Assembly: GCA_002840565.1 (NCBI GenBank)
Contig: PHBK01000006.1
Location: forward strand, 60,423-124,422
Direction: 5' to 3'
DNA: 64,000 nt
Source: Deltaproteobacteria bacterium HGW-Deltaproteobacteria-12
GTDB lineage: Bacteria > Desulfobacterota > Syntrophia > Syntrophales > Smithellaceae
In this document: piece by piece, positions 17,322-28,292 of the stretch
Position numbering within the stretch: position 1 is the stretch's first letter
Layout: every line of letters starts with the position of its first letter
Position numbers and translations under genes: made by a program
Notes under the pieces: generated by a model
Told to the model about the DNA's origin: nothing
The model's input: only the letters and a program-made list of their open reading frames with translations
The model's database searches: none

Positions 17322-17517
17322 TTGACTAATCAGCAGTAAATGCATATAGGTCACGCAATCAGTTTGCCAAGGGTTTTGTAAAAACCTCTTGCTGAAAGGA
17401 TTAACGAATCATAGTCTGATAGTTTTAGCGAGTCTCTAACCTAAGGTTAGCCGGGACGTGCAAGAAAAGTAAGGCTTGCAACTGTATTTGAAATAACACA
17501 GTTGCAAGCCTTTTTTG
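17322..17517 (+). ncRNA. Putative structured leader RNA A, ending in an intrinsic terminator
   Basis: TTGACT-N17-TATAGG promoter (17322-17350), AGGGTTTTgtAAAAACCT hairpin, core CTGATAGTTTTAGCGAG, hairpin GTCTCTAAC..GTTAG..GGGAC, then terminator GGCTTGCAACTGT...ACAGTTGCAAGCCTTTTTT (stem 17471-17485/17498-17512). Confidence 0.5.
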
Positions 17518-17519
17518 TT

Positions 17520-19409
17520 ATGAATGAAAAGGAGAATAAAATGATAGAGAATTTAAACTTGCCGGATGAAGTCGTATCAATTTTTATCGCAGCGCCATCG
17601 TTGATCGTTGCCGATACCATTAGCGATCTTGAAAAGCTGGCTTGCGGAACACAGCAGAACAATGAATGGCAGGTCTCTTACACACTTCCGGACGGCCGGA
17701 CCATCTTGGAAGCTGACGTTGTCCGTGTGAAAAACGGAGTCAGCGCCAATTATCCAGAACCTTACATGAGACGCAGGGATCCCGACTGCATGTACATAGC
17801 CGACAACCAACCTTCAGACAAACCCCGCTTTGAAAATCATTTTGGCTTTCCCTTTACAGATTTACGCCGCAAAACGTTTGACTGGCTGGCCTCTCAGCCA
17901 CTGGCCGCCTTTATCTTTGAAATGGGCCAGCCTGGAACGGGCGGCCTTGCGCTGGCCGTCTGCCCGGCCAACGCCGTCTTCTTTGCCTTCGGCCTGGGAC
18001 TTCTGCAAGGGGTCGTAAATCCCAAAACCCTTACAAAACCGCAAGAACTTACCGCCATTCTTTACGTTGCGCCGCCTTTCCGCCACATAACCTTCGCCGG
18101 CAAACAGGTTGTCGTCCACAACCGTGGCGGCATTCATGAGATTTTTTCATATAATCTTTACCCCGGCCCTAGCGCGAAAAAAGGTGTTTATGGCGCACTC
18201 ATCAACATCGGCGCCCATGAAGGTTGGTTGACGGCCCACTGTTCGGCCGTTCAGGTGATTACCCCCTATGACAACATCGTGACGTTCATGCATGAAGGAG
18301 CCAGCGGCGGCGGCAAAAGTGAAATGCTCCAGCAGCCGCACCGGCTGCCCGACGGGCGTTTGCTGGTTGGAAAAAATCTGGTCACGGGCGACGAGCGCTA
18401 CCTTGAAATCCAACGTACCTGCGATCTGCACCCGGTCTGCGACGATATGGGGCTCTGCCATCCCGATTTTCAGGATACCGGTGGAAAATTGTTTCTGATG
18501 GATGCTGAAGACGGGTGGTTTGTCCGCGTCAACCATATCAAATCCTACGGAACCGACCATGATATCGAAAGGCTGTCCGTTCATCCCGGAAGATCGCTTT
18601 TGTTTCTCAATATCGATGCGGCGATGGGAAGTTCGGCCCTGATATGGGAACATATCGAGGACGAACCGGACAAACCCTGTCCCAATCCCCGGGTGATCAT
18701 TCCCAGAAGCATCGTTCCGGGCGCGGTCAAAGATAAAACGGCAATCGACATCCGGTCTTTCGGCGTGCGCACGCCGCCTTGCACGGCGAAACAGCCCTCC
18801 TACGGAATTCTTGGCCTCCTCCATATCCTTCCACCCGCGCTGGCGTGGCTGTGGAGGCTTGTTGCACCTCGCGGCTACTCCAATCCAAGCATTGTCGGCG
18901 GTGACGCGCTGGAAAGCGAAGGTGTGGGCAGCTACTGGCCTTTTGCCACCGGCCGCCGCGTCGATCAGGCCAATCTGCTTTTGCGCCAATTCCAGCAAAC
19001 AGCGCGCACACGCTATATTCTGATTCCCAATCAGCATATCGGAGCGTGGGAAACCGGTTTCATGCCTCAATGGCTGGCGCGTGATTATCTGGCCCGCCGG
19101 GGTCACGCTCGTTTCCTTTCCGATCAACTGATTCCCGCACGCTCGCCGCTTCTGGGCTATGCTCTCAAAAGTATGCGCATCGAGGGCGTCATGATTCCCG
19201 CATGGCTTCTGCAAATCGAGCAACAACCTGAAGTCGGCCTGGCGGCCTATGACGAAGGCGCTCGCGAACTCAAAAGCTTCTTTCATCAGCAGTTGAAATC
19301 ATTTTTAGAATCGGATCTTGACGAGTTAGGGCGAAAGATCATCGACTGCTGCCTGCAGGAAGGAAATGTTTACGACTACGAACAGTTTCTGGAACTTGCC
19401 GATGGATAA
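17520..19409 (+). CDS. DUF4914-like protein with PEPCK-like P-loop
   Basis: HEGASGGGKSEMLQQPHRLPDGR...ICDDMGLCHP-type region (VCDDMGLCHPDF) resembling the ATP-grasping core of PEP carboxykinase-like kinases; family name from memory. Confidence 0.55.
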   Translation: MNEKENKMIENLNLPDEVVSIFIAAPSLIVADTISDLEKLACGTQQNNEWQVSYTLPDGRTILEADVVRVKNGVSANYPEPYMRRRDPDCMYIADNQPSDKPRFENHFGFPFTDLRRKTFDWLASQPLAAFIFEMGQPGTGGLALAVCPANAVFFAFGLGLLQGVVNPKTLTKPQELTAILYVAPPFRHITFAGKQVVVHNRGGIHEIFSYNLYPGPSAKKGVYGALINIGAHEGWLTAHCSAVQVITPYDNIVTFMHEGASGGGKSEMLQQPHRLPDGRLLVGKNLVTGDERYLEIQRTCDLHPVCDDMGLCHPDFQDTGGKLFLMDAEDGWFVRVNHIKSYGTDHDIERLSVHPGRSLLFLNIDAAMGSSALIWEHIEDEPDKPCPNPRVIIPRSIVPGAVKDKTAIDIRSFGVRTPPCTAKQPSYGILGLLHILPPALAWLWRLVAPRGYSNPSIVGGDALESEGVGSYWPFATGRRVDQANLLLRQFQQTARTRYILIPNQHIGAWETGFMPQWLARDYLARRGHARFLSDQLIPARSPLLGYALKSMRIEGVMIPAWLLQIEQQPEVGLAAYDEGARELKSFFHQQLKSFLESDLDELGRKIIDCCLQEGNVYDYEQFLELADG

Positions 19410-27182: not shown

Positions 27183-28067
27183 ATGAAAAGAATTGTATTG
27201 TTTCTGGCAACCAACATTGCCGTGCTGGTCGTTTTGAGCATTATCGTAAGAATGCTAGGAGTAGACCAGTTTTTATCATCCAAGGGTATCAATTATCTCA
27301 CGCTTCTGATCTTTGCCGCAGTGATCGGTTTCGGCGGTTCCTTTATATCGCTGGCCATTTCCAAATGGACGGCCAAATGGAGCACCGGCGCGCAGGTCAT
27401 TGTTCAGCCTCGCTCGGAGACGGAAATCTGGCTGGTCAACACCGTAAAACGACAGGCGTCAATGGCGGGAATCGGCATGCCGGAAGTGGCTGTGTTTGAC
27501 TCCGATTCGCCCAACGCCTTTGCCACCGGCATGAGCAGAAATAAGGCTTTGGTAGCGGTGAGCACGGGTCTTTTGCGGAACATGAACCGTTCAGAGGTCG
27601 AGGCGGTGCTGGGGCATGAAGTAAGTCATGTTGCCAACGGCGATATGATCACCATGAGCCTGATTCAGGGTGTGGTCAACACCTTCGTGATTTTTCTGTC
27701 GCGTATCGTCGGTTATTTTGTAGACCGCGTTATTCTCAAAAACGAGGACGGTCAAGGGATTGGTTTTTTCGTTACCAGTCTTGTCGCCCAGATTATCTTC
27801 GGCATACTGGCAAGTGTCATCGTTATGTGGTTCAGCCGAAAAAGGGAATACGTGGCGGATATTGGCGGTGCAAATCTGTCGAGCAAAGCCGGGATGATTG
27901 CTGCGCTGGAAAGTCTCAAACTAAGCGCGCATGACCCGCTGCCGGATCAGATGAAAGCCTTTGGCATAAGCGGTAAAAGAGTCAAAAGCGGCATTGCCCT
28001 GCTTTTTATGACCCATCCGCCGCTCGATGACCGCATTGCGGCCTTGAAGCTTTATGTTGTTTCATGA
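27183..28067 (+). CDS. htpX: M48-family zinc metalloprotease HtpX
   Basis: [11 protein letters not shown] zinc motif, [38 protein letters not shown]. Confidence 0.93.
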
Positions 28068-28092
28068 AATTTAACTTTTTATGAAATTTAAC

Positions 28093-28292
28093 TTGACAGA
28101 AAAGTAAATATTTTGTAGGTACTTGAGAAATGTGAGAAATGAAAGCAAAGTTTTCGGGGCAACAAAACCTCCGAGAAAGTGGCTTTAAAATAAGCGCCTG
28201 AGAGTTTGAACGGGTCCTTTCTCCAAGGAAAGGATGCGAAAAAGAAGTAAGGCCGGGAGCGATCTTAAACGAGATCGCTCCCGGCCTTTTTT
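28093..28292 (+). ncRNA. Putative structured leader RNA C, ending in an intrinsic terminator
   Basis: TTGACA-N17-TAGGTA promoter (28093-28121), TTTTCGG..CCGAGAAA hairpin, core GCGCCTGAGAGTTTGAACGGGTCC from 28194, hairpin CCTTTC..GAAAGG, GCGAAAAA, GTAAGG, terminator GGCCGGGAGCGATCT..AGATCGCTCCCGGCC-T7 (28251-28292). Confidence 0.6.

Follow-up and report, generated by a model that had tools for sequence, protein, structure and literature searches.

Three homologous leaders, termed A, B and C, lie on the forward strand of the 64,000-nucleotide stretch of Smithellaceae DNA analyzed here (the window), and they are best read as copies of one undescribed, narrowly distributed leader family. We think it likely that they form one family of cis-acting transcription-attenuation leaders in which an antitermination switch is combined with an inorganic-carbon signal, and the best reading of their role is that of an attenuation leader controlling an inorganic-carbon regulon. 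Sequence comparison shows the homology of the copies, their P1/P2 structure, terminator and position, and the regulon that they share. As a new orphan leader family it is well supported, and the genes that it precedes tell more than is usual: they make up a single regulon, mostly of second-copy enzymes, linked by their use of CO2 or bicarbonate.

Each leader presents, in this order, a promoter, hairpin P1, a conserved core, hairpin P2, an A-rich linker and an intrinsic terminator, and all three segments were found at the positions given in an earlier note on this DNA. In leader A, the −35 element TTGACT (17322–17327; −10 TATAGG, 17 nt further) precedes P1 (17357–17402; AATC/GATT base, AG/AG internal loop, variable upper stem), the core GTCTGATAGTTTTAGCGAG (17414–17432), P2 (17429–17460) and a terminator running from AAGGCTTGCAACTGT to ACAGTTGCAAGCCTTTTTT (17471–17516). 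Leader B consists of a TTGACA-N17-TATTGT promoter (21851–21879), P1 (21886–21930), the core GCCTCAGAGTTTTAACGGG (21940–21958), P2 (21955–21985) and a terminator (21998–22038), and leader C of a TTGACA −35 element (28093–28098), P1 (28142–28186), the core GCCTGAGAGTTTGAACGGG (28196–28214), P2 (28211–28238) and a terminator with its U-tract (28249–28295). The hairpins were delimited by covariation, with folding in C; the cores by alignment, with the core pattern in A and B and folding in C; and the terminators from the sequence (A), a sequence scan (B) or a scan (C), each with a terminator alignment. All three had been credited with a TTGAC(A/T)-N17-TATxxx promoter. The TTGAC(A/T) part stands, being found upstream of every known copy of the leader (11/11), yet C has a poor −10 (TAGGTA), and a strict promoter scan passes B only. 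The common core stands out against chance expectation: with up to three mismatches allowed, the 17-nt pattern CTGAGAGTTTTAACGGG has three matches in the window and no more, namely A, B and C, where 0.14 would be expected, and 0 of 100 shuffles reached three. There is no fourth core in the whole 3.99-Mb genome, either by pattern search or by covariance model.

A search of relatives for copies upstream of genes, which the earlier note had suggested, did yield such copies, and they covary strongly. The core pattern was found in four further genomes among 60 relatives. A first covariance model, trained on the eight leader sequences then known, identified 11 copies in 5 of the 53 genomes of the family, all five Smithellaceae, three of these copies being outside the training set. 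No further leader was detected beyond those five among 158 genomes of the class, in a phylum-wide sample of 401 genomes or on plasmids. A strict core pattern, which does not cover A-type cores and may leave out the genome of the window itself, retrieved from a genome collection only contigs from four of the same five genomes (Syntrophaceae, Smithellaceae and Smithella metagenome-assembled genomes). Two metagenome matches to the core pattern were rejected, as the covariance model does not match them. An 11-sequence model gave four weak matches (20–24 bits, E 0.2–0.96), one of them in G025 (G025:C8); the three others (L078–L080) were inspected and lack the leader layout. The dataset thus comprises eleven sequences from metagenome-assembled genomes, from five genomes and one neighborhood. 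Identity between copies at different positions is only about 39–55%, yet the structure persists. Same-position copies in G000 (the genome of the window), G022 and G029 are mostly closer (76–82% for C, 67% for B and 51–76% for A), and G019 and G025 have leaders similar to one another (74–80%).

Conserved linkers with divergent stems had been taken as the sign of a structured RNA with a covarying P2, and the 11-copy alignment bears this out. On an alignment not fitted to structure, 85.6% of the P1 and P2 cells hold standard pairs, compared to 41–53% in slid controls, and 20 of the 27 pairs show two-sided changes, a result that 0 of 500 shuffles equaled; on the model-fitted alignment, pairing reaches 90% of cells. 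P1 covaries as well, which had not been claimed. That P1 both covaries and varies in length speaks against a leader-peptide attenuator, where ribosome stalling on a short ORF would decide the structure. Some copies do contain short ORFs, such as the 20-codon ORF of C that ends in the core, but no ORF is common to the copies and leader A of G029 lacks any of at least five codons, and we consider this explanation extremely improbable.

The earlier reader could not match the core to common riboswitch classes, and the Rfam scan agrees: none of the 4227 families of Rfam 15 attains its gathering score anywhere in the window. It is very unlikely that the leader belongs to a described class and has merely diverged too far for the models to detect it. 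There are sub-threshold matches to several classes, and CUGAGA is also part of the TPP aptamer, but permissive scans, including those of single copies, returned only sub-threshold hairpin or terminator matches and no TPP. About 100 orphan riboswitch candidates are awaiting their ligands (PMC10043782). Terminator-coupled riboswitches resemble the leader in their covarying structure, unpaired conserved core, overlap of a core element with the terminator and metabolic operons downstream, and differ from it in that the leader has no Rfam class and is very narrowly distributed. ZTP and purine riboswitches are brought to mind by the leader copy before purC/purE, but here too an Rfam match is absent, and most genes of the regulon are not purine genes. 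Pattern and covariance searches of the genome found no such leader at the housekeeping purC.

The terminator, described earlier as strong and of unrelated stem sequence, is present in every copy (11/11). Its inner stem does vary, with covariation, but the outer pairs AAGGC/GCCUU are kept. The GYCU and UUU of the core can alternatively pair with the AGGC that starts the terminator and with the RAA of the linker; 96% of cells are paired in this way, with zero covariation, and the same letters are also held by the terminator. In leader C, pairing analysis and folding place the core GCCT against AGGC at 28250–28253. When transcripts were folded as if cut before the 3′ arm of the terminator, the core pairing had a probability of at least 0.58 in 9 of 11 copies and was weak in A (0.24) and B (0.19) of this genome; in complete transcripts, the terminator form was favored over the antiterminator-like form by 0.8–9.8 kcal/mol. 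The geometry is that of an attenuator, and the leader may well work as one.

The mechanism that we infer, covering antitermination, which way the switch works, direct binding of a ligand and the nature of the signal, is as follows. RNA polymerase would start at the TTGACA promoter just upstream, and P1 would fold first. The core would next pair both with the A-rich linker and with the first bases of the terminator, AGGC, forming a closed element around P2 (GCCU/AGGC, UUU/RAA, CG/YG). If something stabilized this element, such as a ligand bound in its conserved purine-rich internal loops, the terminator would be blocked and the operon read; if not, AAGGC would be taken by the terminator and transcription would stop. 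That the leader is a riboswitch, binding its ligand directly, is a prediction to which we give even chances or slightly better.

Overlap of the element with the 5′ arm of the terminator is also what protein-bound antiterminators show, and an RNA-binding protein, instead of a metabolite, might stabilize or block it, as in the LicT/BglG and PyrR systems. The RAT antiterminators of LicT/BglG are similar in that an internal-loop hairpin shares letters with the terminator, but the leader element is larger and of other sequence, and the CAT_RBD domain of these proteins, detected in four control genomes, was absent from all eight genomes searched (0/8). With PyrR attenuators (RF00515) the leader has in common the presence of carAB in its regulon, a PyrR family protein encoded in the genome, and the stretch CCUGAGAG, which resembles part of the PyrR site; the match of one copy to RF00515 is weak, at 24.4 bits against a gathering score of 54. 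However, the PyrR-site consensus, CCNGNGAGG, is broken in several copies, with GATA, GAGC or CAGA in copies of A and B and GU in place of GG, and the leaders are not among the matches to this consensus at one mismatch or fewer. Of 10 genomes searched, 9 have a PyrR over the cut-off, whether or not they carry the leader RNA, and Pfam scans of 47 window genes revealed no obvious RNA-binding antiterminator. We regard dependence on a protein as possible but doubtful.

The U-tracts of A and C stop about 20–25 nt short of the start codon, so that those genes can be expressed only if polymerase reads through, having started at the leader or still further upstream. In B the distance to the gene is larger, about 100 nt, and it reaches about 320 nt in G025. 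Anatomy and position together suggest cis-regulation. It is quite unlikely that the terminated transcripts of 150–170 nt are themselves the product, that is, trans-acting small RNAs whose unpaired core regulates other mRNAs and for which the downstream genes are mere neighbors. Such RNAs would have their own promoters and strong terminators with U-tracts, as seen here, and the clustering of the copies in one region is frequent for duplicated small RNAs. Nevertheless, the short distance from A and C to the start codons leaves no room for a separate promoter, leader A comes and goes with the operon arrangement of DUF4914-sua5, and conservation of P1, P2 and linker goes beyond a seed.

The genes behind the leaders, all on the forward strand, had been called unrelated, a description that does not hold, since they form one regulon mostly of CO2/bicarbonate enzymes. 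Leader A precedes a DUF4914 gene with a PEP-carboxykinase (PEPCK) fold (17541–19409; Pfam PF16260, model and PDB fold match) and, by domain searches, a HAD-like domain fused to threonylcarbamoyl-AMP synthase (Sua5; 19366–20925). Domain searches also identified the P-type (Ca2+-type) ATPase gene (22139–24865) behind leader B, directly in G000 and G022 and with one gene between in G025. Leader C is followed by second copies of purC and purE (28313–29733; domain and homolog searches) and by the probable rest of its operon (29774–44739), with carboxyltransferase, biotin carboxylase-BCCP, iorA, iorB, carA, HMGL-like, porG/D/A/B and carB genes separated by short gaps, except for 237 bp before porG. 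The order is thus purC2-purE2-carboxyltransferase-biotin carboxylase-iorA-iorB-carA2-por genes-carB2, and the HMGL-like gene occurs only in the window's version. A reading of 33275–35856 as 2-oxoglutarate synthase was discarded, NCBIfam assigning the alpha subunit to indolepyruvate:ferredoxin oxidoreductase. Homologs of purC, purE, carA, carB, carboxyltransferase, biotin carboxylase, ior, por and sua5 exist elsewhere in this genome, and a second DUF4914 homolog is absent from it.

The five genomes bearing the RNA are the same 5 of 53 that carry this DUF4914 gene, and the four with a complete locus have the extra purC (the G029 contig is cut inside purC). In G019 and G025 the leader-C operon runs on into DUF4914-sua5 and leader A is absent; in G000, G022 and G029, DUF4914-sua5 stands apart with its own leader A. 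The leader follows the regulon, leader A being present or absent with the arrangement of these genes. Shared descent of a single island may account for part of the association between the RNA and these genes.

CO2 or bicarbonate is used or released by PurE (or its partner PurK), biotin carboxylase, carbamoyl-phosphate synthase, 2-oxoacid:ferredoxin oxidoreductases, PEPCK and Sua5/TsaC; the oxidoreductases of this regulon are pyruvate and indolepyruvate synthases. PurC, the P-type ATPase and the HMGL-like gene are exceptions; PurC and the ATPase do not use CO2, and PurC takes the product of PurE. In our judgment, a CO2/bicarbonate theme nonetheless runs through these mostly second-copy enzymes, and much of the list is that given for bicarbonate-dependent biosynthesis in bacteria (PMC6126018). 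Because the leaders control mostly second-copy enzymes of this kind, what they read is most likely the supply of inorganic carbon, or else a metabolite that tracks and reports this supply, and the reading would set the level of read-through. A narrower version, a riboswitch that senses bicarbonate/CO2 or a close proxy directly and switches back-up carboxylating enzymes with carbon supply, is improbable as it stands; a phrase search of the papers covered found no bicarbonate or CO2 riboswitch. Partners of syntrophic bacteria are typically CO2-consuming methanogens. If the signal is indeed inorganic carbon, the leader would show carbon-supply sensing by a syntrophic bacterium and would be the first RNA sensor of that kind.

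Two further links to inorganic carbon were set aside. Loss of carbonic anhydrase was rejected as the reason for the regulon, since just one of the 53 Smithellaceae genomes has a beta-type enzyme (PF00484) over the cut-off, and its absence from nearly the whole family does not discriminate those bearing the leader. A bicarbonate-transport link through MpsC was abandoned, as MpsAB of Staphylococcus aureus can do without mpsC (PMC6689103). Genes for MpsC, DUF4914 and purC are also neighbors in G192, from another family of the phylum (L073, 10760–14430), where a different promoter-hairpin-terminator leader lies between MpsC and DUF4914. As a candidate family member, this leader before DUF4914-purC scored 13–16 bits on both strands, and it was rejected as a hairpin artefact.

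DUF4914 is a widespread domain without an assigned function, and a search by domain name did not find it (PF16260) named in the papers covered. Its AlphaFold model (mean pLDDT 87) matched PEPCKs in the PDB (E about 1e-23, probability 1.00), alignment of the structures gives 13–16% identity with solved PEPCKs, and the P-loop EGASGGGKS is invariant or nearly so across 30 homologs. Predicted structure and homolog alignment point to a PEPCK fold with a P-loop, and the domain gains a likely identity as a PEPCK relative.

From about 12000 to 64000 the GC content rises to 0.50–0.56 and tetranucleotide usage moves away from the genome average, peaking at 0.31 against a maximum of 0.29 among 200 random 8-kb stretches, as expected of an island whose genes were acquired or are unusually expressed. 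The leader-controlled operons are flanked on one side by an FeFe hydrogenase cluster of the electron-bifurcating type with HydF (9316–16894) and on the other by genes for a NiFe hydrogenase and its Hyp maturation proteins (44931–53690); HypF is thus another possible user of the carbamoyl phosphate made by CarAB.
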